This document shows, in pieces, positions 13,057-51,075 of a stretch of DNA of 64,000 nt (positions are counted from its first letter, which is position 1; each line of letters starts with the position of its first letter). This DNA comes from Kaistia defluvii (GTDB lineage Bacteria > Pseudomonadota > Alphaproteobacteria > Rhizobiales > Kaistiaceae): positions 558,001 through 622,000 of the forward strand of contig NZ_JAPKNI010000001.1 in assembly GCF_026343955.1 (NCBI RefSeq), read 5' to 3'. A program made the position numbers and the translations under genes. Below the pieces are notes generated by a model. That model ran no database searches. It was not told where the DNA came from and worked only from the letters and a program-made list of their open reading frames with translations.

Positions 13057-13081
13057 AACGCGTGCAGCGCTGCTCCGTTCC
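13057..13081 (-). promoter_or_regulatory. EcfG-type (general stress) promoter upstream of manA
   Basis: On the minus strand the sequence reads GGAAC, 16 bp, CGTT. This equals the consensus GGAAC-N16/17-CGTT for the alphaproteobacterial general-stress sigma factor EcfG. The -10 element is about 90 bp before the manA ATG. Function is inferred from the motif and its position. Confidence 0.65.
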
Positions 13082-13246
13082 CAGAAACGTCTCGCAATTG
13101 CGAAGGCTTCCGTTTCGTCGCTTCCGGCGCGGGCGAGCGGCCCGCGCGGCCGCGCTCTGCCCGCGTCGACCAACCCCGGAATGCGGTTGTGGAATGCGAC
13201 ACGAAACACGCCTGGCGAGAGAGAATGACAGCGCCGTCATAGACGC

Positions 13247-13275
13247 TTGACTCCGGGGCCGGCGCGCGATTAATG
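13247..13275 (+). promoter_or_regulatory. Candidate sigma70 promoter of the FadR-type regulator
   Basis: TTGACT at 13247-13252, a 17-bp spacer and TTAATG at 13270-13275 form a plausible vegetative promoter about 40 bp upstream of the regulator start codon. The -35 is strong and the -10 is moderate. Confidence 0.45.
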
Positions 13276-13286
13276 CAACTGGTCTG

Positions 13287-13299
13287 CTGGTCCGATCAG
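13287..13299. promoter_or_regulatory. Candidate GntR/FadR-type operator
   Basis: CTGGTC-C-GATCAG is an imperfect 13-bp palindrome (5 of 6 arm positions match) located between the candidate promoter and the regulator start, where autorepression is common. It resembles the TGGTC...-type half sites of FadR-subfamily operators. A related perfect inverted repeat, GATCA-TGGC-TGATC, lies at 14137-14150, 16 bp before the binding-protein start. Confidence 0.35.
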
Positions 13300-13315
13300 T
13301 CCATTAGTAGGTGCC

Positions 13316-14071
13316 ATGTCGTCGTCGGCGAAAGTCAGTGATCCCGGCCTCATCGCGGAGCTTCCGACCTTTCGGGAAGCAATCGTGAAGCGTCCGCTGA
13401 CGACCGTCATCAGCGACAAGATCGCCACGCTGATCGCCTCCGGCATCCTGCAGGTCGGCGATGCGCTGCCGAGCGAGCGCCAGCTTGCCGATGCGCTCAA
13501 CGTCAGCCGTGACGCCGTGCGCGGCGGCATCCAGATGCTGGCGGCGCGCGGCATTCTCGAGATTTCGCACGGCGCCCGCACCCGGGTGCGCAGCAACGAG
13601 GTCGGACCGGTCGCCGTCGGCTTCGCCATGGCGCGGGCCGTCAATTCCTACGACATCGAATCGGTGCATGCGGCGCGGCTGCTGGTCGACCGCCAGGTGG
13701 TCGCCGACGCGGCGCGCAACATCGACGATGCCGGCATCGCCGTGCTGGAGGCGCTGCTGGAGGCGCAGACGGAGACGCTCGACGATCCCGTCCGCTTCCT
13801 GATCAGCGACCGCGAATTCCATGTCGCGCTCTACCAGGCGTCGGGCAACCCGCTGCTCGCCGACATCAGCACCGATCTCTACGCCTACATGATGCAGTAC
13901 CGGCGCGAGGCGATGGCCTCTCCCGGCGCGATCGCCACCAGCTATGCCGACCACGTCGCCATCGTCGCCGCCGTCAAGGCGCGCGATCCCGACGCTGCCG
14001 CAGAGGCCTTCGCCGCCCATACCGGCCGCATCTACACGACGACGCAGCCCTTCCTGAAGGGGGGCGGCTGA
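13316..14071 (+). CDS. FadR-subfamily GntR transcriptional regulator
   Basis: This 251-residue protein has an N-terminal winged helix-turn-helix (VISDKIATLIASGILQVGDA, LPSERQLADALNVSRDAVRG) and a C-terminal all-helical FCD ligand domain. The FCD metal-site histidines are visible in DREFHVALYQASGNPLL, SYADHVAIVAAV and EAFAAHTGRIY. Such regulators usually repress a neighbouring catabolic operon and release DNA on binding an organic acid. It lies 94 bp upstream of, and in the same direction as, the sugar importer operon, so it probably controls that operon and itself. The inducer is unknown. Confidence 0.9.
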   Translation: MSSSAKVSDPGLIAELPTFREAIVKRPLTTVISDKIATLIASGILQVGDALPSERQLADALNVSRDAVRGGIQMLAARGILEISHGARTRVRSNEVGPVAVGFAMARAVNSYDIESVHAARLLVDRQVVADAARNIDDAGIAVLEALLEAQTETLDDPVRFLISDREFHVALYQASGNPLLADISTDLYAYMMQYRREAMASPGAIATSYADHVAIVAAVKARDPDAAAEAFAAHTGRIYTTTQPFLKGGG

Positions 14072-14136
14072 CGCGAATTCGGCGGGCCGCGACCGAGGAC
14101 GTGCGGCCCCCGTCGACCCTTATCTTCAACGCAGCC

Positions 14137-14150
14137 GATCATGGCTGATC
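14137..14150. promoter_or_regulatory. Inverted repeat upstream of the sugar-importer operon
   Basis: GATCA-TGGC-TGATC is a perfect inverted repeat with 5-bp arms just before the GGGAGGA ribosome-binding site of the binding-protein gene. It shares CCGATCA with the palindrome before the regulator gene, so it could be an operator for that regulator. The evidence is thin. Confidence 0.3.
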
Positions 14151-14165
14151 AATGGGAGGAACACC

Positions 14166-15149
14166 ATGGAACGCAGGACATTCCTGAAGCTTGCCGCCGG
14201 CACGACGATGCTCGCCGGCGCCGGTCTCGGCGGCATCTCCGCCGCCGGCGCGGCGACCAAGGAGATCGTCTACCTGACGCCGGGCCTCGACCTGCCCTTC
14301 TGGCGCTATCTGTCGAAGGGCATCGAGGAAACGGTCAAGGCCAAGGGCTTCAACTTCCAGGCGCTCGACAGCCACAACAGCGCCGAGACCCAACTCCGCA
14401 ACGCCCAGGATTCGATCGCCCGCGGCGTCGCCGGCATCATCATCTCGCCGACCGATTCCTCGACCGCGCCGAGCGTGCTCGCGCTCGCCCAGAAGGCCGG
14501 CATTCCGGTCGTCATCGGCGATATCGGCACCAATAGCGGCGAGTTCGCCTCTTTCATCTCGTCCGACAACTACAAGGGCGCGCATGACGTCGGCGTCGCG
14601 CTCGCCGAGGCGCTGAAGAAGAAGGGCTGGGAAGGCGGATCGGTCGGCATCGTCGCCATCTCGCAGGCCCGCAAGAACGGCCAGGCCCGCACCAAGGGCT
14701 TCCTCGACGGCCTCAAGGAAGGCGGCTTCACCGGCAAGGAAGCCGGCCTGCAGCAGATGCAGAGCTACACCGCCGACGAGACCTTCAAGTTCACGCAGGA
14801 CATGCTGACGGCGAACCCGGACATGCGCGGCCTGTTCATCCAGACCGACCAGCCGGCCATCGGTGCCCTGCGCGCCATCAAGGCGGCCCGCCGCAACGGC
14901 GAAGTCCTCGTCGCGGCCTTCGACGGCATTCCGGAGTTCGTCGACCTGCTGAAGTCGGGCGACCTCGTCGTCTCCGGCATGCAGCAGCCCTTCCTGATGG
15001 GCGTCAATTCCGGCGAGGCGCTGCTTGAAGTGCTCGACGGCAAGACGCCGAAGACCGAGATCACCGTGCCGATCGTCGCCATCACCAGCTCCAACATCGA
15101 GCAGGAACTGCCGACCATCCGCCGGACCGTCTTCGCCAACGAAGTCTGA
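14166..15149 (+). CDS. Sugar ABC transporter substrate-binding protein (RbsB/type I periplasmic fold), Tat-type signal
   Basis: This 327-residue protein begins MERRTFLKLAAGTTMLAG, a twin-arginine motif with hydrophobic core, cleaved probably near SAAGAATKE. The mature protein has the two-lobed sugar-binding fold: VYLTPGLDLPFWRYLSKGIE, DSIARGVAGIIISPTDSS, GIPVVIGDIGTNSGEFASFI and VAAFDGIPEFVDLLKSGDL. A strong GGGAGGA ribosome-binding site precedes the ATG. It heads an operon with its own ATPase and permease and several dehydrogenases. The ligand may be a branched or acidic sugar, judged only from the downstream enzymes. Confidence 0.92.
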   Translation: MERRTFLKLAAGTTMLAGAGLGGISAAGAATKEIVYLTPGLDLPFWRYLSKGIEETVKAKGFNFQALDSHNSAETQLRNAQDSIARGVAGIIISPTDSSTAPSVLALAQKAGIPVVIGDIGTNSGEFASFISSDNYKGAHDVGVALAEALKKKGWEGGSVGIVAISQARKNGQARTKGFLDGLKEGGFTGKEAGLQQMQSYTADETFKFTQDMLTANPDMRGLFIQTDQPAIGALRAIKAARRNGEVLVAAFDGIPEFVDLLKSGDLVVSGMQQPFLMGVNSGEALLEVLDGKTPKTEITVPIVAITSSNIEQELPTIRRTVFANEV

Positions 15150-15156
15150 TACAGAC

Positions 15157-15189
15157 CCCGTCGCGCGGCCTCGGCCGCGCGACGGGTTT
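15157..15189 (+). terminator. Perfect GC hairpin after the binding-protein gene
   Basis: A 14-bp perfect stem (CCCGTCGCGCGGCC at 15157-15170 against 15173-15186) followed by TTT lies 8 bp after the binding-protein stop. The U-tract is short, so partial termination or mRNA stabilisation is likely. Either would yield more binding protein than ATPase and permease. Confidence 0.65.
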
Positions 15190-15247
15190 CCTATCCTTCC
15201 GCCCCCGCGCAGGATCGCGTCGAGGCCGTCTTCAGGAGCATGATTCG

Positions 15248-17155
15248 TTGCAGCCCAATTTGGCACCCGTCGCGGAGGCAGACGTTTCCCCCCTCCTCGT
15301 CGCGCGGGGCATCACCAAGACATTCGACCGGACGCGGGCGCTGCAGGGCGCCGACTTCGAGCTTCGCGAAGGCGAAGTGCACGGCCTGCTGGGCGCCAAC
15401 GGCGCCGGCAAGTCGACGCTCTCCAAGGTCATTTCCGGCCACTACACCCTCGACAGCGGCGACCTCTCCTATCGCGGCCACGAGATCCGCCTGCGCTCCA
15501 CGCGCGACGCGCTGCGCATCGGCATCGCCATCGTGATGCAGGAGACGAGCCTCGTCCCCGACCTCACGGTTCTGGAAAACATCTTCCTGCCCGAACTCGG
15601 CCGCCCCGGCCGCCTCGACTACAGCCAGCTGCGCCAGCGCGGCCAGGAGATCCTCAACGATCTCGGCCAGGGCGACAGCCTGCCCTTCGACTGGGAAGTG
15701 CGGCGCCTCTCCTCGGCGCAGAAGCAGCTGGTCGAGATCGCCAAGGCGCTGGGCGTGCGCGCCAAGCTGCTGATCTTCGACGAACCGACCGCATCGCTCA
15801 GCCCCGGCGAGGCCGAGCGCCTGTTCGACATCATGGCGCGGCTGCGCGACACCGGCCACGGGCTGGTGTTCGTCTCGCACCGGCTGGAGGAAGTCTTCGC
15901 GATCACCGACCGCGTCACCGTGCTGCGTGAAGGCCGCACCGTGATGAATGCGCGCGAGACCGCCTCGCTGTCGCAGGCGGACCTGATCCGCGCCATGGTC
16001 GGCGCCGAACTCGGCGCCATCTACGAGCGCAAGGAAGCCCATATCCAGCAGATCGACGCCCCGGTGGCGCTCGAGGTCCGCAACCTGAGTTCGACTCCGG
16101 CCGTGCGCGACGTTTCCTTTTCGGTGAGGAAGGGAGAAATCCTCGGCATTGGCGGCCTGGTCGGCGCCGGCCGCTCGGAGACGGTCGAGGCGATCTTCGG
16201 CCTCCGCCCCCGCACCGGCGGCGAGGTGGTGCTGAACGGCAAGTCGCTCCGGGGCGACAGCCCGCAGACCTCGATCCGCGCCGGCCTCGGCTTCGTCGCC
16301 GAGGACCGTCGCACGCAGAACATCGTGCCCGACCTCTCGGTCAAGGAGAACCTGCTGCTCGCCCATCTCGGCGCCCATCGCGGCTTCTTCTGCAGCTACG
16401 CCTCGCGCGAGCGCAAGGTGAAGGAGCTGCTGGCGGGCCTCGGCATGCCCGAGGACCGTCTGATGGACGCCTCGATGCTGAACTTCTCCGGCGGCATGCA
16501 GCAGAAGATCATCATCGCCCGCTGGCTGCTGCTCGAGCCCAAAGTGCTGATCCTCGACGAGCCGACCAAGGGCGTCGACATCGGCACCCGCGCCTCGATC
16601 TACACCATGCTGCGCGACATCGCCGCCCAGGGCGTGGCGCTGGTCGTCGTCTCCTCCGATTTCGAGGAACTGCTCGGCCTTTCCGACCGCGTCGTGGTGA
16701 TGAGCGACGGCCGCACCACGGCCGACCTGCCGAGCGCCATGCTCGACGAGGAAAGCCTGACGCTGCTCGCCGCGCCGCGTACCTCGATGGTGCGCAACAC
16801 CGAGATGCTGAACGAGCTCGCCCGCGCCCATGACGGCGCCGGCTTCTGGGGCCTGATCGAGGGCGACCGGCTGATCTGCCTGAACGCGGTCGCCAGCAAT
16901 CCCGCGCTCGACCCCGGCTTCAAGGCCGGCGAAGCGCGCGAGCTCGCGGCCACCCGCATCCCCGAGGCCCTCAGGCGCCGCGAGCCGGTCTTCGTCGCCG
17001 AGCCGGACGGGGAACGCACCACGCTGGTGGTGCCGATGACCAGTCCGCGTGGCCACGACCTCGGCTGGGTCGGGCTTTCGCTGCCGACCGACCGCCCGTT
17101 GCCCGCTCCGGAAACCATCAAGTCCCGCATCGACACCATGGCGGCAACGCTGTGA
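15248..17155 (+). CDS. Sugar ABC transporter ATP-binding protein, duplicated ABC domains plus novel C-terminal domain
   Basis: The likely start is TTG at 15248, with AGGAG about 9 bp upstream, giving 635 residues. Two ABC modules are present: the first has GLLGANGAGKSTLSKVISGH and LLIFDEPTASLSPGEAE, the second has GGLVGAGRSETVEAIFGLRP, LNFSGGMQQKIIIARWLL and LILDEPTKGVDIGTRAS, typical of RbsA/MglA-type ATPases. Those are usually about 500 residues. Here an extra ~130 residues follow ADLPSAMLDEESLTLLAAPR, including GAGFWGLIEGDRLICLNAVA and TTLVVPMTSPRGHDLGWVGL, which look like a small alpha/beta sensory or GAF-like domain. The stop overlaps the permease GTG start (GTGA). Confidence 0.9.
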   Translation: MQPNLAPVAEADVSPLLVARGITKTFDRTRALQGADFELREGEVHGLLGANGAGKSTLSKVISGHYTLDSGDLSYRGHEIRLRSTRDALRIGIAIVMQETSLVPDLTVLENIFLPELGRPGRLDYSQLRQRGQEILNDLGQGDSLPFDWEVRRLSSAQKQLVEIAKALGVRAKLLIFDEPTASLSPGEAERLFDIMARLRDTGHGLVFVSHRLEEVFAITDRVTVLREGRTVMNARETASLSQADLIRAMVGAELGAIYERKEAHIQQIDAPVALEVRNLSSTPAVRDVSFSVRKGEILGIGGLVGAGRSETVEAIFGLRPRTGGEVVLNGKSLRGDSPQTSIRAGLGFVAEDRRTQNIVPDLSVKENLLLAHLGAHRGFFCSYASRERKVKELLAGLGMPEDRLMDASMLNFSGGMQQKIIIARWLLLEPKVLILDEPTKGVDIGTRASIYTMLRDIAAQGVALVVVSSDFEELLGLSDRVVVMSDGRTTADLPSAMLDEESLTLLAAPRTSMVRNTEMLNELARAHDGAGFWGLIEGDRLICLNAVASNPALDPGFKAGEARELAATRIPEALRRREPVFVAEPDGERTTLVVPMTSPRGHDLGWVGLSLPTDRPLPAPETIKSRIDTMAATL

Positions 17156-18150
17156 GCAAGGAAACTTCGCCCATGGTCCAAGAGACCCTTTCCCGTCAGG
17201 CCCCGGCCTCGCCCATCAAGAAGATCGCGCAGCGGCTCGAAGTCCGCATGCTGCTGCTGGCGCTGCTGATCGCGGTCTGCCTCTCCTTGCTGTCGCCCTA
17301 CTTCCTGACCAAGTCCAACATCTTCAACCTGCTCGACCAGTCTGTGGTGATCGGCATCGTCGCCGTCGGCATGACCTTCGTCATCCTGACCGGCGGCATC
17401 GACCTCTCGGTCGGCTCGGTGGCGGGCCTGACCGGCATCATCCTCGGCCTGTCGCTGCAGCATGTGCCGATCGTGCCGGCGATCGGCATCGCGGTCGCCG
17501 CCGGCGGCTTCATCGGCCTGATCTCGGGCACGCTGATCACGGTATTCGGGCTGGCGCCCTTCGTGGTGACGCTCGGCGTCATGGCGATCGGCCGCAGCCT
17601 CGCCTACATCTTCTCCGGCCAGACGGCGATCTCGAACATCCCCGACGGCATGCAGGCCATCGTCTACACCAACGTGCTGGGCATCCCGTCCAACGTGCTG
17701 TTCCTGATCGTGCTCTATCTCGCCGCCTGGGCCTATCTGACCTACACCAAGGGCGGCCGCACCATCTATGCCGTCGGCTCCAACAAGGAAGCCGCCCGCG
17801 CCGCCGGCCTGAACACGACCTTCTATTCGATCCTGCCCTATGTGCTCTCCGGCGCCTTCGCCGCCGTGGCCATCACCTTCTCGATCAGCCAGCTGCTTTC
17901 CGCCGATCCGCTGATGGGCAACGGGATGGAGCTCGACGCGATCGCCGCGGTCGTCATCGGCGGCGCCAGCCTGTTCGGCGGCCGCGGCTCGATGTTCGGC
18001 ACGCTGATCGGCGTCCTGATCATGGTGATGATCCGCAACGGCCTGAACCTCATGGGCGTCTCGCCCTTCTGGCAGGGCACGGCGATCGGCACCATCATCA
18101 TCCTCGCCCTTCTGGTCGAGCGTCTGGTTTCCTCGAGGGTCAGCCGATGA
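17152..18150 (+). CDS. Sugar ABC transporter permease (RbsC-like)
   Basis: This 332-residue inner-membrane protein has eight to ten hydrophobic spans, with the family motifs GIVAVGMTFVILTGGIDLSV near residue 70, YAVGSNKEAARAAGLNT (the cytoplasmic coupling loop) near residue 205, and IAAVVIGGASLFGGRGSMFG near residue 265. It is the membrane channel of the importer. The GTG start at 17152 overlaps the ATPase stop. An ATG at 17173 is an alternative start. Its own stop overlaps the next ATG (18147-18150). Confidence 0.92.
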   Translation: MSKETSPMVQETLSRQAPASPIKKIAQRLEVRMLLLALLIAVCLSLLSPYFLTKSNIFNLLDQSVVIGIVAVGMTFVILTGGIDLSVGSVAGLTGIILGLSLQHVPIVPAIGIAVAAGGFIGLISGTLITVFGLAPFVVTLGVMAIGRSLAYIFSGQTAISNIPDGMQAIVYTNVLGIPSNVLFLIVLYLAAWAYLTYTKGGRTIYAVGSNKEAARAAGLNTTFYSILPYVLSGAFAAVAITFSISQLLSADPLMGNGMELDAIAAVVIGGASLFGGRGSMFGTLIGVLIMVMIRNGLNLMGVSPFWQGTAIGTIIILALLVERLVSSRVSR

Positions 18151-20084
18151 GCAACGCCCCTTCCCTTGCAGTCCGGCTCTTCGGCACCGACGAACCCGTC
18201 ACGCCGCTCCGCATCCTGAGGGCGGGGGCGCTCACCGCAGAACTCGACACCGGAAACCTGCGCCACATCCACTTTGGCGGTGTCGAGATCATCCGCGCGA
18301 TTTCCTTCATCGTGCGCGACAAGAACTGGGGCACCTACAACCCGGTAATCTCGGATCTCGTCGTCGACGAGCGCGCCGACGGCTTCACCGTCACCTACAA
18401 GGCGCTGGCGCTCGACGACAACCAGGCCTTCCGCTATTCGGCCCGCATCGAGGGCTCGGCCGAAGGCCGCCTCGACTTCTCGGCCGAGGGCAGCGCGGAA
18501 ACGCCGTTCCTCACCAACCGCACCGGCTTCGTCGTGCTGCATCCGATCGCCGGCGTCTCCGGCCATCCGGTGACGATCGAGCATGTCGACGGCTCGATCG
18601 TGGAAAGCCGCTTCCCCGACATCATCGATCCCGTCCAGCCGATGATGTATCTGCGCGCCCTCACCCACGAGGCGGCGCCGGGGCTGAAGGTCACCTGCCG
18701 GATGGAAGGCGACACCTACGAGATGGAGGACCAGCGCAACTGGACCGACGCCTCCTACAAGACCTATGTCCGGCCGCTCGCCCTGCCCTGGCCCTACACC
18801 CTGCCCAGGAACGAGCGCATCGAACAGGCGGTTCGCCTGACGGTCACCGGCGCGCTGCCGGCGTCGGAGGCCGGTTCGGTCGCCGGCAAGGTGACGCTCG
18901 GCGACGTCATCGGCACGGTACCGGCGCTCGGCCTCGGCCTCGACCCGTCCGAGATCACCGATACGCTCGCCCGGCGCGACCGGCTGCACCTCGTCGGCGC
19001 CAAGGTGCTGGTCGGCTATTACGACCCGTCGCTCGGGCATGATTTCACGACGCTGGGCGGCATCCTCGCCACGGCGCGGTCGCTCGACGCCGAGCCCTGG
19101 CTCGAGGCGGTCATCCAGTCGGTCGAGGGCTTCGAGGCCGAGATCGCGGCGCTCGGCCGCGACGTCGACGCGATGGGCTCGCCCTTCAAGACCGTGCTGC
19201 TGTCGCCGCTGCCGGATCTGAAATGCACCCTGCCGGGCAGCGTCTGGCCGCCCGCGCCGCCGCACCGCGCCTTCTTCGAGGCAGCGCGCAAGGCCTTTCC
19301 GAAGGCCCGCATCGGCGGCGGCATGTTCAGCCTGTTCACCGAGATGAACCGCAAGCGGCCGCCGGTCGACCTCATCGACCTCGTCTCGTTCACCACGACG
19401 GCGATGCTGCATGCCGGCGACGACATCTCTGTCACCGAGACGCTGGAAACACTGCCCGCCGTGGCGCTCAGCGCCAGGGCGATCGCCGGTGAAACGCCCT
19501 ATGCGGTCGGCCCGAGCGCCATCGGCATGCGGATGAACCCCTATGGCGAGGCGCCCTTCGCCAATCCTGGCAACATCCGCCAGGCGATCAACTTCAACGA
19601 TCCCCGCCAGCGTGGCCTGCTCGGCGCGGCCTGGGCGCTGGGCTTTTTCGCCCGCTTCGCCGAAGGCGGCGCCTCGACGATCACGCTCGGCGGCACGACC
19701 GGAGCGTTTGGCCTGGTTCATGCGAAGCACGACTGGCCGCAGCCCTTCTTCGACGAGGCCGGCGGCGTGTTCCCGATGTTCCACGTGCTGCGCGGCATGG
19801 CGCGCCTCGCCGGCAGGCCGCTGCGCCAGGTGACGACGCCGGATGCGATCGAGGCGATCGCCGCCGAGACCGGGGATGGCGTCGAACTCTGGCTTGCCAA
19901 TCGCACAGGCTCCGAACAGTCTGTCGCCCTGCCCGGCGCGCCGCGTGACCGGTTCTTGCTCGATGCCGACAGCTTTGTCGCCGCGACGCAGGACGCCAAT
20001 GCGCTGGATACGCTGGCAAGACCTTTTGACGACCGCAAGCTTACCCTGGCACCCTACGCGGTAGCGAGAATCCGACTGTCCTGA
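18147..20084 (+). CDS. D-apionate lactonase-like protein (ApnL family, tentative)
   Basis: From the ATG at 18147 the protein has 645 residues and no signal peptide or membrane segment. The N-terminal half is beta-rich (ELDTGNLRHIHFGGVEIIRA, FIVRDKNWGTYNPVISDLV, YEMEDQRNWTDASYKTYVRP) and the C-terminal half looks like a TIM-barrel glycosidase fold (FPKARIGGGMFSLFTEMNRK, GPSAIGMRMNPYGEAPFANP). From memory this matches proteins named D-apionate lactonase, which open the lactone of oxidised D-apiose, but I could not search to confirm. It is translationally coupled to the sugar permease by an ATGA overlap, so it probably acts on the imported sugar or its oxidised lactone. A frame open from 17049 merges into it but overlaps the permease and is not used. 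Confidence 0.6.
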   Translation: MSNAPSLAVRLFGTDEPVTPLRILRAGALTAELDTGNLRHIHFGGVEIIRAISFIVRDKNWGTYNPVISDLVVDERADGFTVTYKALALDDNQAFRYSARIEGSAEGRLDFSAEGSAETPFLTNRTGFVVLHPIAGVSGHPVTIEHVDGSIVESRFPDIIDPVQPMMYLRALTHEAAPGLKVTCRMEGDTYEMEDQRNWTDASYKTYVRPLALPWPYTLPRNERIEQAVRLTVTGALPASEAGSVAGKVTLGDVIGTVPALGLGLDPSEITDTLARRDRLHLVGAKVLVGYYDPSLGHDFTTLGGILATARSLDAEPWLEAVIQSVEGFEAEIAALGRDVDAMGSPFKTVLLSPLPDLKCTLPGSVWPPAPPHRAFFEAARKAFPKARIGGGMFSLFTEMNRKRPPVDLIDLVSFTTTAMLHAGDDISVTETLETLPAVALSARAIAGETPYAVGPSAIGMRMNPYGEAPFANPGNIRQAINFNDPRQRGLLGAAWALGFFARFAEGGASTITLGGTTGAFGLVHAKHDWPQPFFDEAGGVFPMFHVLRGMARLAGRPLRQVTTPDAIEAIAAETGDGVELWLANRTGSEQSVALPGAPRDRFLLDADSFVAATQDANALDTLARPFDDRKLTLAPYAVARIRLS

Positions 20085-20111
20085 TTTCGTTCCATTATTC
20101 GAGGTTGTACT

Positions 20112-42993: not shown

Positions 42994-43618
42994 TCTTGCC
43001 TCCCCGCCGCAGGGCGCGCGCGCCGAGCATGTCCGGGCTGACCCGGGCCAGGAAGCCGCAGGCAAAGCCGGTGATGATGGCCTCGCCGACCAGCAGCGGG
43101 CCATAGGAGAGGAGCACGATGCGCGCCGAAAGCGTGTAGCTGGAATCGCTCAGCGTCAGCACCAGCGCCACCAGGACGGCGGTGGTCGCGACCGAGAGCG
43201 CCGCCACGACGGCGCCGACCCATGCCGCGCGGCGCGGCGTGGCATCGACGAGCAGAGGCGCGAACAGCATCGCCCAGAGCACGCCGGGCAGCGCGATATC
43301 CATCGTGTTGACGCCGAGCGTCGTGACGCCGCCGAATCCGAAGAACACCGCCTGCAGCACCAGCCCGACGAAGACGGCGGGCACGGCCGCCCAGCCGATG
43401 ATCAGCCCCATCAATCCGGACAGCAGCAGATGGACGCTGGTCGGCCCGACGGCGACGCTGATCAGGCTGGCGACGAAGAACAGCGCCGCCAGAACGGCGA
43501 CGCGCGGCAGGCTGTCCTCGTCGAGCTTCTTCAGCGCATAGGCCAGGGCCGCGGCGGTCACGATCCCGCCGCCCGCCAGCACGGGAACCGACAAGACGCC
43601 ATCCGGAATATGAGCCAT
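42977..43618 (-). CDS. nikM: ECF transporter substrate-specific component (NikM/CbiM)
   Basis: Starting at the ATG at 43618 the protein has 213 residues and begins MAHIPDGVLS, the hallmark N-terminus whose His and amino group coordinate the metal in this family. It has six or seven membrane helices, including VGPTSVHLLLSGLMGLIIGW with another metal-ligand His and GFGGVTTLGVNTMDIALPGV. The frame stays open upstream, but that part covers a repeat and is not coding. Nickel rather than cobalt is inferred from the NikR site, urease and NikK/NikL neighbours. Confidence 0.92.
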   Translation of the reverse strand: MAHIPDGVLSVPVLAGGGIVTAAALAYALKKLDEDSLPRVAVLAALFFVASLISVAVGPTSVHLLLSGLMGLIIGWAAVPAVFVGLVLQAVFFGFGGVTTLGVNTMDIALPGVLWAMLFAPLLVDATPRRAAWVGAVVAALSVATTAVLVALVLTLSDSSYTLSARIVLLSYGPLLVGEAIITGFACGFLARVSPDMLGARALRRGGKIAASS

Positions 43619-43689
43619 ACAGGCCTCCGCCTCGCTTGCTTCACCTCGCCCCGAGGGAGAGGGTAGAGCCGGCTTCCCCGAAAGGGGCG

Positions 43690-44454
43690 CTATTTCATGT
43701 CCCGGGCCTGGACCCAGATCAGACCGCCAAGCTCGACCGGCTTGGGCTCTCCGTCCGGATCCGGCAGCTGGTAATCGGCATCGACAAGGGCGGCGAAACC
43801 CCACCAGCCGGCGCGCGGCATGGCGTAGTGGAACACGCCCTGCCCGTCCGCCTTGACCACCTGGGTGACGAAGGCATCGGCCGGCGGCGTGACGGAGCCG
43901 TCATTGACCCACTCGACCTCGACTTCGGCGAACGGCACGGGCTCGCCATTGCGGCGCACGACGCCGCTGAACAGATTGCCGGTCCAGAGCCCGTTCGGGC
44001 GCGCAAGCGGCTCGATCTCGACGGGAAGGCCGACCGGCCGGTCCCAGTCCGAGCCCCAGCCGAACGCATCGACGACGACCTTGGCGTAATGGATGATCGA
44101 CTTGCCCTCGGCCGGCTCCCAATAGGGCTTCGGCTCGACGAAGAAGGTGTAGGCGCCCGGCTTGGCCGGCTTGTAGCGGGTCTTCCAGGCCATCTTGCCG
44201 TCGCGCGGCGCCTCGACCAGCGTTCCCAGCAGATCCGTCTCCCCCTCGGAGGTCACGACTCCGAAGCGGACGGGCCTGGCCATGTCCATGGTCGGGCCGC
44301 GATCCATGGGATGGGTGAAGACCAGGTCGAGGTCCAGCGCCTTGTCCTCGGCGCCGAAATTATCGGTCGAGGGCAGGATCTCCTGGAAATGCGCCTGCGC
44401 CAGGGAGGGAGTGGCGATGGCGGCGACCAAGGCAACGATGCGTACGAACTTCAC
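43690..44454 (-). CDS. nikK: DUF4198-family periplasmic protein (NikK-like)
   Basis: I favour the GTG at 44454, 6 bp after GAGGA, giving 254 residues. The ATG at 44460 is an alternative. The signal peptide FVRIVALVAAIATPSLAQA is followed by HFQEILPSTDNFGAEDKALD, placing a histidine at the mature N-terminus as in NikK/DUF4198 proteins. Further segments are HPMDRGPTMDMARPVRFGVV and AKPGAYTFFVEPKPYWEPAE. In other bacteria NikK is a periplasmic nickel-binding part of NikMNQO-type importers. It is the first gene of the nickel import operon. Confidence 0.85.
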   Translation of the reverse strand: MKFVRIVALVAAIATPSLAQAHFQEILPSTDNFGAEDKALDLDLVFTHPMDRGPTMDMARPVRFGVVTSEGETDLLGTLVEAPRDGKMAWKTRYKPAKPGAYTFFVEPKPYWEPAEGKSIIHYAKVVVDAFGWGSDWDRPVGLPVEIEPLARPNGLWTGNLFSGVVRRNGEPVPFAEVEVEWVNDGSVTPPADAFVTQVVKADGQGVFHYAMPRAGWWGFAALVDADYQLPDPDGEPKPVELGGLIWVQARDMK

Positions 44455-44482
44455 AACCATTCCTCGCTTCCAGACCGTCTGG

Positions 44483-44517
44483 ATGTGAGGATTGTATCGG
44501 AATGTCATACGCGTCAA
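44483..44517 (-). promoter_or_regulatory. Promoter with NikR operator upstream of nikKMLQO
   Basis: On the minus strand TTGACG (44517-44512), 15 bp, TACAAT (44496-44491) form a strong promoter with a short spacer. Overlapping it, ATGTGA (44483-44488) and TCATAC (44505-44510) are separated by exactly 16 bp, matching the E. coli NikR operator GTATGA-N16-TCATAC at 10 of 12 positions. The operator covers the spacer and the -10, so nickel-bound NikR should block initiation. Confidence 0.72.
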
Positions 44518-44567
44518 GCGCCGAATGCACGTTTTCGACGGACCGGACCGGTTTATGCAACCCTGCG

Positions 44568-47500
44568 TCAGTAGGCGATGTAAACGCCGAGCTGCACGGC
44601 ATGGCTATCCTCGCCGCCGGCAAAGCGGCCGGCGTAACTGACGAAGCCGCTGGCGCCATAGACCAGACCGAAATCGAGACCGGCATCCACCGTGGCGGCA
44701 TCACGGCCGGGTCCGATGCCCGCGATCTGGAACGTATCGCTGCCGGCAAAAGCCATCCCCAGCGTCGGCGTCTGGTCCGAGAAGGAATGTGTCCAGGCGA
44801 CCGCGACGCGCGGCTTGATCCAGAGGCCGTGGTCGAGATCGAAGCGATGGCTGGCCCGGAGGCCGAGCGTGGTGCCACAGCCCGAAAGCGCGCCGCCGGA
44901 CGAGGAAAGATTGGCGGCGCCCGCGCCATCCTCTGTGAAGCCGTCGAGATCGGTGCGAGCGCAGGCGAAGCCCGCCATCGGCTCGACCTCGCTGGCGCCG
45001 AAGCGCAGGACATAGCCGAGTTCGGCGAAGGCCTGCGCGGTCCAGCCGTCATGGCTGCTATTCGCCGTGCCGTTGAGCGGGGAGACGTGGATCTGCCGCT
45101 CGACGTCGAGCTCGTGCAGCGCCATGGCGACGCCGCCGCGCACGCGCAGGGCTTCGTAGTTCCACTGGCCGTAGCCGGCCAGGATGAAGGATTGCAGGTC
45201 GGCGGAGCTGTCGCGGTCGTCGAGCGAGATCTTGCCCTTGTCCATGCCGACGGCGAGGCCGACGCGGACGTTCTCCGTGGTGCGGTCGATACCGGCCAGG
45301 ATGCCGGCCGAATGGCGCGACCCGCCGGCGGCGTTGCCGTCACCGTCGAAGTTGGTCTGCGCGCCATAGCCGGTGAGCCAGGGCGTATAGCCCTCGACCC
45401 AGCCAGAATTGCGCATCCGGTTCAGAAGCGTCGCCCGCGTCTGCTCGCCCTGCGCCTGCAGGGTGCCGAGCGCGGTCGCGTGGATCTCGCCGGAGAGATT
45501 GTCGAAGGCGGCGCGCGCCGTCGCCACTTCGAGCGGCAGCACGGCGTCATGGACCGCATTGCCGGGGCCGAGTTGCTCCACGGCCCCACCCGTCGCCCTC
45601 TGGTTCGGCGTCGCGCCGACCGAGGCGAAGGTCGTGTCGTTGCGATCGAGCGTGAGGCTGATCATCTGCGTCGTTTGGTCGAGCGTCGGGTCGAGAAAGG
45701 CGTAGTCGGAAAGCGTGTTGCCGAAGGTACCCGTGATCGTGCCGGTGGCGGAAAGGATCGTGTAGGAGGTGCCGACCTGCAGCGGCACGGCCGAGACCGC
45801 CAGCTTGAGCGTGCTGCCGTCGATATCGACGTCGCCCTCGACCGAGACCCGGCTCATGCCATTGGCCGTGACGGTGGTGCGCAAGGTGGACGTCGCTTGC
45901 AGCGCCAGGTCGCCCCCGATCGTGAGCGTGCCGGCCGGGGACGCGGCGTGGCCGCCGGAAAGGATGCCGGCGACCGTGGTCGCGCCCACCGTGCCGATGC
46001 CGGATAACGTGCCGTTCGCTCCGACCACGACGGAGGAATCCGCGATGCCGCCATCGACCTGCAGCGTGCCGCCGGTGATCGTCGTCGTGCCCTGGTAGGT
46101 GTTGTCGGCGGTCAGCGCCAAGGTACCGGCGCCGAACTTGTTCAGCCCGCCCTCGCCCGAGATCAGGCCGGAAAACACCGTCGACGTGCCGTCGCCGCCC
46201 ACCGAGAGCGCGCTGGTCGCCGCGTTCAGCGTGACCGCGCCGGCGCCGGCCAGCGAGCCGATCGTCGCCTTGAAACCGGCGAGATCCAGCGTCGCGCCGG
46301 CAGCGATGGTGAAGGCCGACTTTTCCGCCAGCGCGTCATCGGCGGCCGCCTGCAGCGTGCCGGCCTGCACATCGGTGCGGCCGGTATAGAGGCTGACGCC
46401 GCCGAGGCTGAGCGTGCCGGTGCCGACCTTGACCAGCGAGCCGCCTGTGCCACCGCCTATGCCGCCATCCTCGATGGTGCCGTCGACCGTGGTCGAGAGA
46501 TTGCCGCTGCCCACGGTCAGCACCTTGCCGCCGAGCCGGAACGTGCCGGCTCCCTCGATGGTACCGACGGCGATGCCGCTGGCGACCTGCGAGAAATCGA
46601 CCGTCGCATCCTCATCCGCGATCAGATGGGCGGTGCCGCCCGTGGCATTGCCGGCAAAGGTGGTAAGGCCGCCGCCGCCCGTGGTGATCGTGACCGTGCC
46701 GGCCGAACTCGAACCGGAGAAGTCGACGCGGCCGGCATTGTTGATGGTCGATTGGGCGGCCGTGCTGTTGCCGGAGAAGGCGATCGCCGAGCCCATATTG
46801 TTGATCAGGTCGGACGAGCCGGCCGAGCTGGAGCCGGAAAAAGCGACCGAGCCGCTGTTGCCGATGCGGGCATTGCCGGCCGTGCTCGTCTCCGTAAACA
46901 GGATCGAGCCGCCTTCATTGTTGGCGACGAAGCCGGTCGCGGCCGTGCTGGAGCCCTTGAACGTCACCTGGCCGCTGTTCGACAGCAGCGCCACGGCGCT
47001 GAGCGAGGCCTGCTCGGAAAAGACGATCGCGCCGGTGGCGTTGTTGGTGAGCGTCGCGATGCCGGCGCTGCTGGTGCCGGCGAAATTGACGATACCGCTA
47101 TTGTTGAGCGAGGCGCCGGCCAAGGTGCTGGCGTCGAGGAAATCGACCACCCCGGTGGTGTTGTTGGTGATCTCGGCCGTGCCGGCGCTGGAGGCGTCGG
47201 TGAACTCCATCCTGCCGTTGACGGTCAGCTTCGAGGTGCCGGCCGTGCTGTCATCGGCGAAGGTGAGCGTGCCGCTGGCATTGGTGACGAAGGTGGCGCC
47301 CCCGGCCGTCGACGAGCCGCTGAACAGCGTCGCGCCGTTGTTGGTGACCTTGGCGGTGCCGGCGCTGGCCGTGCCGCTGAAACCAAGCAAACCGCCGCCA
47401 TTGTTGACGATGGTCGAATTGCCGGCCGTGCTCGCATCGCCGAAGGACAGGCTGCCCGTGCCGTTATTGGTCAGGATGGCGTCGGCGGCGGTGCTGGCAT

Positions 47501-47798
47501 CATAGAAATAGGTCGAGCCGCCGGAATTGTTGATGATGTTGGCCTGGTCGGCGGTGCTGGTGTCGTTGAAGCGGACCGTATCGCCGTCATTCGCGGTGAT
47601 CTGTTCCGACCCGGCCGACTCGGTGCCGTTGAACTCGCGATCGGAGGCCGCCTGCGCCGTTGCCGGCAGCAACAGGCCTAGCCACAGGGGCGCAAACGCC
47701 CAGGACCACGCCGCAGCCCGAGGGGACGCGACCGGTCGGGGCGCGACGAAGCGGCCTGCCTCGCGTCGACCGGAACTGAAATCTCGCCGCCCAACCAT
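44568..47798 (-). CDS. Autotransporter (type Va) with repetitive beta-helical passenger
   Basis: From the ATG at 47798, with GAGG 7 bp upstream, the protein has 1076 residues. An extended signal peptide ends near residue 50 (WLGLLLPATAQA). Residues ~55-410 hold at least 15 imperfect ~21-residue repeats of the type DASTAGNSTIVNNGGGLLGF, rich in Ser, Thr, Ala and Gly with almost no charge. Then come autotransporter-associated strand repeats (LVKVGTGTLSLGGVSLYTGR, LNKFGAGTLALTADNTYQGT) and, from about 810, a 12-stranded beta-barrel domain (NSGWVEGYTPWLTGYGAQTN) ending in LGVYIAY with the aromatic last residue. It is probably a surface adhesin. A CtrA-like site lies about 82 bp upstream. Confidence 0.92.
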   Translation of the reverse strand: MVGRRDFSSGRREAGRFVAPRPVASPRAAAWSWAFAPLWLGLLLPATAQAASDREFNGTESAGSEQITANDGDTVRFNDTSTADQANIINNSGGSTYFYDASTAADAILTNNGTGSLSFGDASTAGNSTIVNNGGGLLGFSGTASAGTAKVTNNGATLFSGSSTAGGATFVTNASGTLTFADDSTAGTSKLTVNGRMEFTDASSAGTAEITNNTTGVVDFLDASTLAGASLNNSGIVNFAGTSSAGIATLTNNATGAIVFSEQASLSAVALLSNSGQVTFKGSSTAATGFVANNEGGSILFTETSTAGNARIGNSGSVAFSGSSSAGSSDLINNMGSAIAFSGNSTAAQSTINNAGRVDFSGSSSAGTVTITTGGGGLTTFAGNATGGTAHLIADEDATVDFSQVASGIAVGTIEGAGTFRLGGKVLTVGSGNLSTTVDGTIEDGGIGGGTGGSLVKVGTGTLSLGGVSLYTGRTDVQAGTLQAAADDALAEKSAFTIAAGATLDLAGFKATIGSLAGAGAVTLNAATSALSVGGDGTSTVFSGLISGEGGLNKFGAGTLALTADNTYQGTTTITGGTLQVDGGIADSSVVVGANGTLSGIGTVGATTVAGILSGGHAASPAGTLTIGGDLALQATSTLRTTVTANGMSRVSVEGDVDIDGSTLKLAVSAVPLQVGTSYTILSATGTITGTFGNTLSDYAFLDPTLDQTTQMISLTLDRNDTTFASVGATPNQRATGGAVEQLGPGNAVHDAVLPLEVATARAAFDNLSGEIHATALGTLQAQGEQTRATLLNRMRNSGWVEGYTPWLTGYGAQTNFDGDGNAAGGSRHSAGILAGIDRTTENVRVGLAVGMDKGKISLDDRDSSADLQSFILAGYGQWNYEALRVRGGVAMALHELDVERQIHVSPLNGTANSSHDGWTAQAFAELGYVLRFGASEVEPMAGFACARTDLDGFTEDGAGAANLSSSGGALSGCGTTLGLRASHRFDLDHGLWIKPRVAVAWTHSFSDQTPTLGMAFAGSDTFQIAGIGPGRDAATVDAGLDFGLVYGASGFVSYAGRFAGGEDSHAVQLGVYIAY

Positions 47799-47879
47799 GT
47801 CGCCGCCTCGATACCCGCCATCGGCCCCAAGGCCTTGCGAAGGCATCGGGATTCCCGACGATAGGTGACGCGATGCGCC

Positions 47880-47895
47880 TTAAACTATGGTTAAC
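47880..47895 (-). promoter_or_regulatory. CtrA-type binding site upstream of the autotransporter
   Basis: TTAA-N7-TTAAC (ttaa at 47880, ttaac at 47891) equals the full CtrA consensus TTAA-N7-TTAA, and on the minus strand it contains the common half site TTAACCAT. AT-rich sequence is rare in this GC-rich window. It lies 82-97 bp before the autotransporter start. Confidence 0.6.
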
Positions 47896-47934
47896 AAGGG
47901 ATTGCTTGTCCCCGCCGGCAAGGTCGCCGCCCGC

Positions 47935-48180
47935 CTATCGCGACAGGCGGCGGGCGTTGGCGCGCACTTTCTGGCGATAGCTCCGCACGACGCTGTCGAG
48001 CGAGGCGCCGCCGGCCATCCGCAGCGACGACTGCGTCGCCGCGAGCACTTTCTCGCGCATCATCAGTTCCGCCTCGCGCTGCGCGTTCGCGCCTCCCGCC
48101 GCGAGCTTGATCATGCGCAGGAGAACCACCTGCTGCGATTCGAACGCCAGCCTGTTGAGATTGAGCCAGGTGTGGAACAT
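47935..48180 (-). CDS. Small conserved hypothetical protein
   Basis: This 81-residue protein (MFHTWLNLNRLAFESQQVVL at the start, VVRSYRQKVRANARRLSR at the end) is predicted to be helical, with an amphipathic N-terminus and a basic C-terminus. It has no signal peptide. Similar short proteins seem widespread in Hyphomicrobiales, and it has a phasin-like look, but I cannot assign a function. It reads in the direction of the autotransporter gene with 136 bp between, so co-transcription is possible but a separate CtrA-like promoter argues against it. Confidence 0.65.
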   Translation of the reverse strand: MFHTWLNLNRLAFESQQVVLLRMIKLAAGGANAQREAELMMREKVLAATQSSLRMAGGASLDSVVRSYRQKVRANARRLSR

Positions 48181-48320
48181 GGACGTCTCCTGGGGCCGAA
48201 GCGGGACATTGGCTCCGGCTCGGCTAGAAGGCGCCAGGGGGCCGGTTGGTTCCCTGACGCAGCGCAGAAAGCGCCGTCTTAACCTATTGGTGATATTGTG
48301 GGGTCAAGAGGTGACTTACC

Positions 48321-48346
48321 GGAACGAAATCGGAGGTAACTCCGTT
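48321..48346 (+). promoter_or_regulatory. EcfG-type promoter upstream of the response regulator
   Basis: GGAAC at 48321-48325, 17 bp and CGTT at 48343-48346 match the EcfG consensus exactly. The response regulator start codon is about 105 bp downstream, leaving a roughly 100-nt leader. Confidence 0.65.
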
Positions 48347-48452
48347 GGACGGTTCATAGCAACGCAAGCATGACGCGGATTGTCGTCTTTCTTGCCGAGA
48401 TCGGCCCGGTTGCCAGTGGCCGGGTGTTGCCAAGTTTGGGTACCCTATTGTG

Positions 48453-48824
48453 ATGAGCATCTCCAATGGACCACCCGTCATTCTCGTCGTTGAGGATGAA
48501 GGTCTTGTTCGCATGGCAGCAGCGGACGATCTGATGGAAGCCGGCTTCAAGGTTCTTGAAGCGGCAAATGCCGATCAGGCGATCCAGATGCTGGAGACGC
48601 ATCCCGAGATATCCATCCTGTTCACGGACATCGACATGCCCGGATCCATGGATGGAATTCGTCTGGCGCATGCCGTTCGCGAGCGGTGGCCGCCCGTGAA
48701 GCTGGTGCTGGTTTCGGGTCACCAGTCGCCGACCTCCGACATCCTGCCGACCGACAGCGCCTTCTTCGCCAAGCCTTACGACATGGGCAGCGTCTCGAAG
48801 GCACTCTGGGCGATGACGACCTAA
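48453..48824 (+). CDS. Single-domain response regulator
   Basis: This 123-residue protein (a GTG at 48450 is an alternative start) is a lone receiver domain. The acidic pair is in ILVVEDEGLVRMAA, the phospho-acceptor Asp in ILFTDIDMPGSMDGIRLAHA, the Ser switch in LVLVSGHQSP and the Lys in AFFAKPYDMGS. There is no output domain, so it would act by phosphotransfer or protein binding. It lacks the FATGUY motif of stress-linked single-domain regulators. It converges with an HWE kinase gene 17 bp away and has an EcfG-like promoter. Confidence 0.92.
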   Translation: MSISNGPPVILVVEDEGLVRMAAADDLMEAGFKVLEAANADQAIQMLETHPEISILFTDIDMPGSMDGIRLAHAVRERWPPVKLVLVSGHQSPTSDILPTDSAFFAKPYDMGSVSKALWAMTT

Positions 48825-48841
48825 GAAGCCGCCGACTGGCT

Positions 48842-50353
48842 CTAGCCGAGCTGGTCGCGCGCCATGGCGAGATGAATCGCCACGCCATCCCGGTTCCATT
48901 CGTAGTCCAGGGAACCGGCAAGCTGGCCTACGACGACGCGGTTGGCGAGCGTGCTGCCAAAACCGTGGCGCAGAGGTCGATGCGCGATCTTTGGTCCCCC
49001 GACCTCCCGCCAGTCGACGGTCAGCATGCCGCCATGAACGGCCCAGCTTACCTCCACCCGTCCCTCCGCCACTGAAAGCGCGCCATATTTGGCGGCGTTG
49101 GTGGCGAATTCGTTGAAGACGAGGGCGAGGCTCGCCACGGCCGAGCCATTGACCACGATATCCGGGCCGGCGAGCACGAGGCGCGGCGCGCCCTCCGGAC
49201 CGCCGCGATAGGGCAGCAGGATCGCCTGGATGAGCTCACGCAGGTTCTGCGCGCCACCCGCCATGTCGATGTCGTCGATCAATCCGGGTCGCGTGAGTTC
49301 GTGCGCCCGCGTCAGCGCGTCGAGACGCTCGCGGACCGATTTTGCCAGTTCGGCCGGCGTCGCGGCGGCGCGTGCGCTCATCGAGACGATCGAGCCGGCG
49401 ATGGCAAAGAGATTCTTGATGCGGTGGCTCATCTCGCGGACGATCAGGCGCTGCTGCTGTTCCGCCTGGCGGCGATCGGAGATGTCGCGCGCAATCTTCG
49501 AGGCGCCGATGATGCGGCCTTCCCGGTCGCGCACGGGCGAGATCGTCAGCGAGATCTCGACCAGGCTGCCATCCTTGCGCCGGCGAACCGTTTCGAAATG
49601 GTCGACGCGCTCGCCGTTGCGGATGCGCCGGAGAATGGCCGGCTCCTCGTCCTGTCGATCAGGCGGGATCAGCAGCGCGATCGGCTTGCCGATCATCTCT
49701 TCCGGAGCGTAGCCGAACAGGCTCTCGGCCCCGGCATTCCAACTGACGACAATGCCGTTCAGGTCCTTGCTGACGATCGCGTCATGCGAGGATTCGACGA
49801 TCGCCGACAGCACGGCGGCCGACAGGTCCGAACGTTTGCGATCGGTGATGTCGACCAGCATGTTGACGCCGCCGACGATGGTGCCGTGCGGGTCGCGGAG
49901 CGGCGTCGGATAGGCCGAGAAATGCACGCGCGTCCCGTCCGGCCGCTCGGCGACCGCCTCGGCGCCGCGAATGGCTCGTCCCTCCGCAAGCGCGATCGCC
50001 ATGGGACAGGCATCGTGCGGCAACGCCGTGCCGTCGGGCCGGTAAAGGCGCCAGGCTCCGCACCATGTTTCCTCGCCGAGAACCGGGCGACGCCCCCACA
50101 ACGCCGCCGCCGCTTCGTTGAACGAGGTGATCCGGCCCAGGGAGTCGACGGTATAAATCGCCGCCGGCAGCACATCGACGACATCGCGGATCTGGTCGAA
50201 ACCACGTGTCATGCGGTCCAGATCGGTCGGCTCTGTTTCGCCGTGAGACAGGTCGTTGATCATCGCGCCCAATGCAGTAGCCGGTCCATCGTCCCGGACT
50301 CCGTCGCTGCCTCGCCTATAGGTCGTGGAACCGGTCGACAAATCAAGCGGCAT
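48842..50353 (-). CDS. HWE-family sensor histidine kinase with two PAS domains
   Basis: This 503-residue soluble kinase has PAS domains at about 55-170 (VLPAAIYTVDSLGRITSFNE) and 175-300 (IVESSHDAIVSKDLNGIVVS), then the HWE core. The phospho-acceptor His is in REMSHRIKNLFAIAG, the conserved histidine downstream in LDALTRAHELT, the N-box in LVFNEFATNAAKYGALSVAE and the WxE motif in MLTVDWREVGGP. No membrane helix is seen, so it senses a cytoplasmic signal such as redox state, light or a ligand. HWE kinases commonly feed the PhyR-EcfG stress pathway. The partner is possibly the adjacent response regulator. Confidence 0.94.
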   Translation of the reverse strand: MPLDLSTGSTTYRRGSDGVRDDGPATALGAMINDLSHGETEPTDLDRMTRGFDQIRDVVDVLPAAIYTVDSLGRITSFNEAAAALWGRRPVLGEETWCGAWRLYRPDGTALPHDACPMAIALAEGRAIRGAEAVAERPDGTRVHFSAYPTPLRDPHGTIVGGVNMLVDITDRKRSDLSAAVLSAIVESSHDAIVSKDLNGIVVSWNAGAESLFGYAPEEMIGKPIALLIPPDRQDEEPAILRRIRNGERVDHFETVRRRKDGSLVEISLTISPVRDREGRIIGASKIARDISDRRQAEQQQRLIVREMSHRIKNLFAIAGSIVSMSARAAATPAELAKSVRERLDALTRAHELTRPGLIDDIDMAGGAQNLRELIQAILLPYRGGPEGAPRLVLAGPDIVVNGSAVASLALVFNEFATNAAKYGALSVAEGRVEVSWAVHGGMLTVDWREVGGPKIAHRPLRHGFGSTLANRVVVGQLAGSLDYEWNRDGVAIHLAMARDQLG

Positions 50354-50427
50354 CGCCCCGGTGGTTGCGGCGGATTCCTGTGCATCCCAAAACGACGCTC
50401 CGAGAGCATGCCAGCCATCGGGACGCG

Positions 50428-50456
50428 AAAAAGTCCCGCCAGATCTGGCGAGACTT
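50428..50456 (-). terminator. Terminator of the PRC-barrel gene
   Basis: AAGTCCCGCCAG and its near mirror CTGGCGAGACTT (50431-50456) form a palindrome. On the minus strand it is followed by a run of five T. It lies 38 bp after the PRC-barrel stop codon and before the kinase gene. Confidence 0.82.
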
Positions 50457-50493
50457 CTCTGTCGGTCGGGTTCGACCTATCAGCGCGCAACCG

Positions 50494-50886
50494 TCATTCG
50501 GCGTATTTGAATTCCGGCGCGGCGGTGAGGCTTTCCTTGGTGGCCGCCCGCAGGATCGTCTTGCCCTTCTGGGTGGTGTCGAGATCCATGTAGGGAACGG
50601 CGACGAGCTTGGCGCCGATGCCGAGGAAGCCGCCAACCGACAGAACGGCGTAGGGCACCTGCTGATCCGCGGTCAGGATCAGGTCGTCGACCGAACCGAT
50701 GGTGTCGCCATTTTCGTTCTCGACGGTCGAGCCGATGATCTTGGAGGCGCGCCATCCCGTGGCGATCGTGGCAGGGTCCAGCGTGGCGACGCCGACCGTC
50801 TCCTGCGGCGCGGGCTTGGAATCCTGCGCCAGCGCGGGAACCGTGAGGGCGGCGAAAATGGCCAGGGCGGCGAGGGTCTTCGTCAT
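50494..50886 (-). CDS. Exported PRC-barrel domain protein
   Basis: From the ATG at 50886, with AAGGA 9 bp upstream, the protein has 130 residues. A Sec signal peptide (KTLAALAIFAALTVPALAQ) is followed by a PRC-barrel-type beta domain: WRASKIIGSTVENENGDTIG, SVDDLILTADQQVPYAVLSV and LVAVPYMDLDTTQKGKTILR. Such periplasmic PRC-barrel proteins are common in Hyphomicrobiales, often among stress-induced genes, and their molecular role is not established. It has its own EcfG-like promoter and terminator, so it is a single-gene unit. Confidence 0.88.
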   Translation of the reverse strand: MTKTLAALAIFAALTVPALAQDSKPAPQETVGVATLDPATIATGWRASKIIGSTVENENGDTIGSVDDLILTADQQVPYAVLSVGGFLGIGAKLVAVPYMDLDTTQKGKTILRAATKESLTAAPEFKYAE

Positions 50887-50919
50887 GTCGATCGATCCTT
50901 GTGAATGGGGTGACCGTTC

Positions 50920-50945
50920 AACTCGGATCGACGCCGGATCGTTCC
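50920..50945 (-). promoter_or_regulatory. EcfG-type promoter upstream of the PRC-barrel gene
   Basis: On the minus strand GGAAC (50945-50941), 17 bp and AGTT (50923-50920) match the EcfG consensus except for the first base of the -10 element. The start codon is 34 bp downstream. Confidence 0.55.
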
Positions 50946-51050
50946 AGCCTCTCCAGCTTATCCACAACCCATGAGCTAATCCACAGCCCAGGCCAAATCC
51001 ATTCGACCCCCGCCATCTTCGATCTGTCGCAACCTGATGCTGCGGAGGCC

Positions 51051-51075
51051 GGAACCAAACACTCGCTTCCCCGTT
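51051..51075 (+). promoter_or_regulatory. EcfG-type promoter upstream of the 25-residue membrane peptide
   Basis: GGAAC at 51051-51055, 16 bp and CGTT at 51072-51075 match the EcfG consensus. It faces away from the similar promoter at 50920, so one short divergent gap carries two stress-type promoters. The small gene starts 32 bp downstream. Confidence 0.68.

Follow-up and report, generated by a model that had tools for sequence, protein, structure and literature searches.

The general stress response is released, in other species, when phosphorylated PhyR binds NepR under stress and thereby frees the sigma factor EcfG. A first-pass annotation of the 64,000-nucleotide stretch of DNA analyzed here (the window) had pointed to four EcfG-type elements and had proposed that they define a local general-stress regulon. 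The locus therefore raises the question of whether these elements are promoters read by EcfG, whether the regulon that they serve is local, and what kind of protein is the 25-residue hydrophobic peptide encoded behind one of them.

Four motif matches in the window

A pattern search of the window recovered all four sequences in the places and on the strands given by the first-pass annotation (Table 1), and its description of them as intergenic and oriented toward a gene is right for each. The −35 box GGAAC is intact in all four sites, and the −10 box CGTT, at a spacer of 16–17 nt, is exact in three; GGAAC-N16/17-CGTT thus has three matches in the window, and the fourth site, that of the PRC-barrel gene, has AGTT. 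The base after the −10 box is G in every case. The −10 box stands 33 nt ahead of the start codon of the PRC-barrel gene and 31 nt ahead of that of the peptide gene; for manA, which starts at 12967, the gap is 89 nt, and for the response regulator, whose GTG start is at 48450, it is 103 nt. In dinucleotide shuffles of the window, at least three exact CGTT matches occurred in 1 of 100 sequences, and at least four matches with [A/C]GTT in 2 of 100.

The search also bore out the claim that the window contains no additional match with the right spacing. Just two other intergenic one-mismatch sites were found in the window, each with a faulty box: 13086(−), whose −35 box reads GGAAG, and 48228(−), whose −10 box reads CCTT. 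The latter (48228-48253, GGAAC-N17-CCTT) lies 47 nt upstream of a divergent gene for an 81-aa protein (47935-48180) with no Pfam family, and is degenerate and perhaps due to chance. Farther along the minus strand, 44568-47846 encodes a large autotransporter-like protein, with repeats in its N-terminal half as judged by eye from the translation.

Table 1. Positions of the predicted promoters, genes, and hairpins in the window.
Feature	Positions	Strand	Basis
GH130 enzyme gene	8384..9727	−	Pfam GH130
GT4-type glycosyltransferase gene	9720..12011	−	Pfam Glycos_transf_1 and Glyco_transf_4
manA-like mannose-6-phosphate isomerase, class I (319 aa)	12008..12967	−	NCBIfam manA and Pfam PMI_typeI_cat, each below cut-off
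EcfG-type promoter of manA-GT-GH130, GGAAC-N16-CGTT	13057..13081	−	exact match
EcfG-type promoter of response regulator, GGAAC-N17-CGTT	48321..48346	+	exact match
Single-domain response regulator (124 aa)	48450..48824	+	Pfam Response_reg only
PAS-PAS-HWE histidine kinase (503 aa), convergent with regulator	48842..50353	−	Pfam HWE_HK and PAS families
Terminator-like hairpin behind PRC-barrel gene, before kinase gene	50420..50460	−	−20.7 kcal/mol, z −3.6
PRC-barrel protein, apparent signal peptide (130 aa)	50494..50886	−	Pfam PRC; signal peptide by eye
Probable EcfG-type promoter of PRC-barrel gene, GGAAC-N17-AGTT, weakest of four	50920..50945	−	pattern match
EcfG-type promoter of micropeptide operon, GGAAC-N16-CGTT	51051..51075	+	exact match
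25-aa hydrophobic micropeptide gene	51107..51184	+	purifying selection; homologues in 80/80 listed loci
301-aa membrane protein, predicted all-helical	51191..52096	+	model pLDDT 79
Terminator of micropeptide operon	52115..52150	+	14-pair stem and T run; −29.5 kcal/mol, z −5.7

A genome-wide regulon and its switch genes

Genome-wide, GGAAC-N16/17-CGTT has 79 exact matches, against 61 for the reversed pattern used as a control. This plain count is nearly uninformative, and all 79 motif and 61 control matches were therefore classified by gene position, using our own gene caller, which places the manA and regulator starts late, so that its motif distances for both are too long. Promoter-like was defined as lying within 300 nt of a same-strand gene with no gene between. 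By this definition 37 of the 79 motif matches are promoter-like, compared with 6 of the 61 control matches (Fisher p = 1.3e-6); 42/79 and 12/61, respectively, are intergenic, and 37/79 and 49/61 lie in coding sequence. An alternative is that the four sites are accidental matches, as a short pattern may yield in a GC-rich genome. The 37 coding matches and the closeness of the raw count to the control are what chance would predict, but the promoter-like excess, together with the retention of the peptide-site boxes in relatives while the spacer diverges (see below), makes this explanation very unlikely.

EcfG, NepR, and PhyR are all encoded in the genome, at one locus. NepR has a single match in the genome, and the neighbors of nepR are an EcfG-like ECF sigma factor, PhyR (above the cut-off of the NCBIfam PhyR model), and an HWE kinase; another gene of the nepR/ecfG locus is presumably csbD-like, judging by eye. 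The exact motif stands 36 nt upstream of the phyR start, and GGAAC-N16-CATT is found near nepR and near the csbD-like gene. Since the nepR element overlaps the start of the listed ORF, it counts only if the true nepR start lies further in. Because the genome encodes all three switch proteins and the motif is enriched in promoter-like positions genome-wide, the window sites are read here as part of a genome-wide EcfG regulon. What stands of the original proposal is therefore EcfG, on the evidence of the switch locus, the genome-wide enrichment, and the retention of three of the four sites in relatives. The word local is not supported: 34 further exact promoter-like sites lie outside the window, some of them chance matches as implied by the control, and the manA site is 35 kb from the other three. 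Three of the 37 promoter-like exact sites fall in the window, where 0.48 are expected per 64 kb (Poisson p = 0.013), and so form a mild cluster.

Genuine promoters at these sites could also be used, in whole or in part, by an ECF sigma factor other than EcfG. The genome contains five further ECF-like matches to EcfG, and in Sinorhizobium meliloti the targets of RpoE6 overlap the RpoE2 regulon (PMC6180224). However, the next-best match to EcfG in this genome is just 38% identical, the same motif precedes phyR, and the motif is the published EcfG consensus (PMC7083833, PMC4814048), all of which leaves this alternative improbable. The proposed mechanism, that EcfG reads the four elements as promoters and that a genome-wide stress regulon includes the four units behind them, is considered likely. 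Under stress, phosphorylated PhyR would bind NepR, and the EcfG so freed would direct RNA polymerase to a regulon comprising phyR, catalase, superoxide dismutase, and two GH130 operons among others. From the sequence we infer that the genes of the window would likewise depend on EcfG and be induced by stress.

In 20 of the 34 promoter-like sites outside the window, CGTT is followed by G. A Pfam scan of the first gene at 26 of these sites, and of the second gene as well at two of them, returned catalase, Fe/Mn superoxide dismutase, MgtC, two PRC-barrel proteins, and PhyR as first genes, along with LolA, DUF992, DUF502, BA14K, cupin, molybdopterin oxidoreductase, and TetR families, a helix-turn-helix (HTH) protein, AnmK, an extensin-like protein, and 3-dmu-9_3-mt; no Pfam family was found for 8 of the 26. 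The second genes are topoisomerase IB and a second GH130 enzyme. The boxes, the spacer, and the NepR-PhyR genes are like those of the EcfG/RpoE2/SigT regulons of S. melonis, S. granuli, S. meliloti, M. extorquens, and C. crescentus, and so are the target types PRC-barrel, catalase, and topoisomerase IB (PMC6599016, PMC7083833, PMC6180224, PMC4814048). PRC genes and topoisomerase IB are among the EcfG targets with the same motif in one of these reports (PMC6599016), and a PRC gene in another (PMC6180224). The promoters and most target types are thus already known; in contrast, manA-GT-GH130, the second GH130 operon, and the micropeptide operon are added here as predicted targets.

Sugar-metabolism, signaling, and PRC-barrel genes

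The sites were followed in relatives by means of three proteins (the 301-aa protein, the regulator, and manA), each sought in 61 genomes. Spacers of 15 to 18 were allowed in the element scan; the conserved elements have 16 or 17. For manA, 7 of 10 orthologues carry the element at −114 to −116, and it is absent from the three most divergent. Among the seven positive orthologues, 9/9 box columns are invariant, compared with 3/16 spacer columns. This footprint is less discriminating than it appears because conservation extends into the leader behind the promoter, where 34 of 84 columns are invariant. EcfG would drive manA-GT-GH130, and with it mannose metabolism, from this site. The nearest NCBIfam model for the GH130 gene is beta-1,2-mannobiose phosphorylase, below its cut-off. 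Elsewhere in the same genome (L052, on C12), an exact EcfG-type motif at 751515-751540 is followed by a HAD-IIB/phosphomannomutase-like gene and then by the second GH130 gene. Taken together, the two GH130 operons hint at a stress-linked mannoside pathway. No report joining GH130, the general stress response, and a sigma factor was found in the literature searched, which lay mostly outside subscription journals and supplements.

The response regulator was followed through 23 of 30 fetched loci. The element is present in 13 of them (11 with CGTT, 2 with TGTT), including all of the nearest seven; the 10 loci that lack it are mostly more distant paralogues. When the nearest seven are aligned, GGAAC and GTT line up in 7/7, and the automatic column count (0/5 −35 columns invariant) reflects an alignment that missed the motif. 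The regulator leader also contains a 27-codon ORF (48370-48453, plus strand) that overlaps the regulator start through TGATG; by eye, a comparable frame can be seen in G009 alone.

The genetic arrangement recalls LovK/LovR of Caulobacter, which is controlled by SigT and acts as a phosphate sink (PMC5964349), in that a single-domain response regulator adjoins a kinase gene. In this genome, unlike in that system, the kinase carries PAS domains, and its gene runs convergently to that of the regulator and has no EcfG-type site of its own in the list of window sites. LVLVSGH and FFAKPY in the window protein look canonical by eye in this comparison, where the feature is taken from PMC5964349. In S. 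meliloti, the exsG/exsF kinase-regulator pair is likewise among the EcfG targets with the same motif (PMC6180224). EcfG would drive the regulator, which together with the HWE kinase most likely feeds back on the same phosphorelay network, as LovK/LovR do in Caulobacter; that the pair serves as a LovK/LovR-like phosphate sink is offered as a hypothesis.

The PRC-barrel site is weaker than the first-pass annotation had presented it. The −35 box is kept in 5/5 syntenic genomes, but the −10 box drifts among them, reading AGTT, AATT, GGTT, CATT, and CGTT (two of these by eye from the alignment). An EcfG-regulated PRC gene with a GGTT −10 box is described in S. melonis (PMC6599016), and in vitro transcription in S. 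granuli is lowered, though not lost, when CGTT is changed at a single base to CATT or TGTT (PMC7083833). The site is probably, though not certainly, an EcfG-type promoter that drives the PRC-barrel gene; it is possible that this one site is a chance match. The hairpin behind the PRC-barrel gene, which is absent from the list of a simple terminator scan, suggests that the kinase gene lies outside the PRC transcription unit.

A micropeptide gene and its 301-aa neighbor

The peptide ORF ends 6 nt before the gene for the 301-aa protein, and the same promoter lies upstream of both. EcfG would drive an operon of two genes, one for the 25-aa micropeptide and one for the 301-aa membrane protein. Homologues of the larger protein were read at 27 of 30 fetched loci. 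It occurs in 12 of 14 genomes of the genus. In each of these, GGAAC-N16/17-NGTT stands at −140 to −162 of its gene (10 CGTT, 2 AGTT), with 8/9 box columns invariant across these orthologues, compared with 0/16 spacer columns. Of the 15 other matches read, 10 have the element within 600 nt, three of them at 326–362 nt. Across the 12 genus orthologues, codon differences in the peptide number 589 synonymous vs. 167 nonsynonymous, compared with an expectation of 27% synonymous for random single-base changes. The 25-aa peptide is therefore under purifying selection at the protein level.

The peptide is also found well outside the genus. Its core pattern was found in 45 of a sample of 397 genomes of the order, and a combined pattern with tight spacing in 22 of the 397; 27 of 30 loci fetched from the order search have GGAAC-N16/17-[C/A]GTT within 400 nt upstream. 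A GTDB scan with the peptide returned at least 118 stretches, 80 of them given as loci. By record title, 65 of the 80 are alphaproteobacterial (one, titled only ‘Bacterium’, was placed by its strain name) and 15 are beta- or gammaproteobacterial. All 80 listed loci encode a peptide of 23–26 residues, taking the nearest Met as the start, and among these listed matches it recurs nearly invariant in alpha-, beta-, and gammaproteobacteria. Plasmid sequences gave no match to the peptide in a search run with a low-complexity filter.

The promoter element is distributed differently. Among the matches listed, GGAAC-N16/17-N[A/G]TT occurs within 250 nt upstream in 47/65 alphaproteobacterial loci vs. 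1/15 beta- and gammaproteobacterial loci, the single positive of the latter being a metagenome bin; shuffles of the alphaproteobacterial sequences gave a mean of 0.8 and a largest value of 5. With [C/A]GTT only, the listed counts are 19/65 vs. 1/15. The element is missing from 18 of the 65 listed alphaproteobacterial loci, and Mesorhizobium accounts for 25 of the 65; collapsing the listed loci by title leaves 18 of 31 groups with at least one element and 13 with none. At the listed alphaproteobacterial loci, 43 of 62 GGAAC occurrences are found 50–74 nt upstream of the peptide start, where the reversed word shows no peak. Since EcfG has been described as exclusive to alphaproteobacteria (PMC3892343), the peptide element broadly follows the presence of EcfG. 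In one family (f11, L223-L232), ten genomes carry a 24-aa form of the peptide (MRSILLWFLG...) with an EcfG-type element 97–141 nt upstream and no detectable 301-aa partner within the fetched stretch.

At 57 of the 80 listed loci, the peptide and 301-aa genes are same-strand neighbors; the peptide comes first in 49 of these and the membrane protein in 8. The partner is on the other strand at one further locus, and at 22 no partner was detectable in the fetched stretch, so the peptide does not always travel with the 301-aa protein. The micropeptide gene lies downstream of the membrane-protein gene in L237, L277, L285, L288, L291, and L305, which are beta- and gammaproteobacterial. These arrangements bear on the possibility that the 25-codon ORF is a mere leader peptide controlling translation or attenuation of the 301-aa gene. 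Its place just ahead of that gene under a shared promoter, and the greater frequency of the peptide-first order, would suit such a role. However, the order is reversed at some loci and the larger gene is missing from the fetched stretch at others, and the amino acids are near-invariant while the codons vary. The change of gene order between loci thus disfavors a mere leader, which is judged unlikely.

Neither Pfam nor NCBIfam has a family that matches the 301-aa protein of the window. Other members of its family give weak, scattered Pfam matches, the best being Yip1 at E 0.0014 in 4/40. Its structure model is all-helical and of moderate confidence (pLDDT 79, pTM 0.66), and searches of the PDB returned no fold match at E ≤ 0.001 and no sequence relative below E 0.1. 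The micropeptide has no Pfam match and a single NCBIfam match under the cut-off (17.7 vs. 23 bits).

Small membrane subunits such as KdpF, AcrZ, and CydX are very short hydrophobic peptides, often encoded beside a larger membrane protein. The micropeptide resembles them in length, in hydrophobicity, and in often having a larger membrane-protein gene beside it. It differs in that its neighbor is uncharacterized and its sequence is kept over three classes. Most likely, it would insert into the membrane as one proline-kinked helix and act under stress as a small subunit of the 301-aa protein.

Sequence strings of the micropeptide were not found in the text of the literature searched, nor was a report joining a small membrane protein, the general stress response, and EcfG, and the available part of a paper on the S. 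meliloti small proteome does not mention it (PMC10117765). As most subscription journals and supplements were outside this search, the term undescribed holds within the literature searched. With that scope, the 25-aa peptide is probably an undescribed stress-response membrane microprotein. A broader reading, for which the chances are put at about even, is that the peptide and its usual 301-aa partner form an undescribed, widespread stress membrane module, which EcfG would control in most alphaproteobacteria and another regulator in beta- and gammaproteobacteria. In this reading the peptide would act as a protein in itself, binding its partner so as to protect the inner membrane or remodel it under stress.

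The promoters carry a known regulon into one more genome and give it sugar-metabolism and signaling genes as predicted targets, which is useful and ordinary. The peptide is more important, being a protein of 23–26 residues that is nearly unchanged in three proteobacterial classes and has no family model in Pfam or NCBIfam. Because its promoter names the response that it would serve, the role of this orphan microprotein is directly testable.
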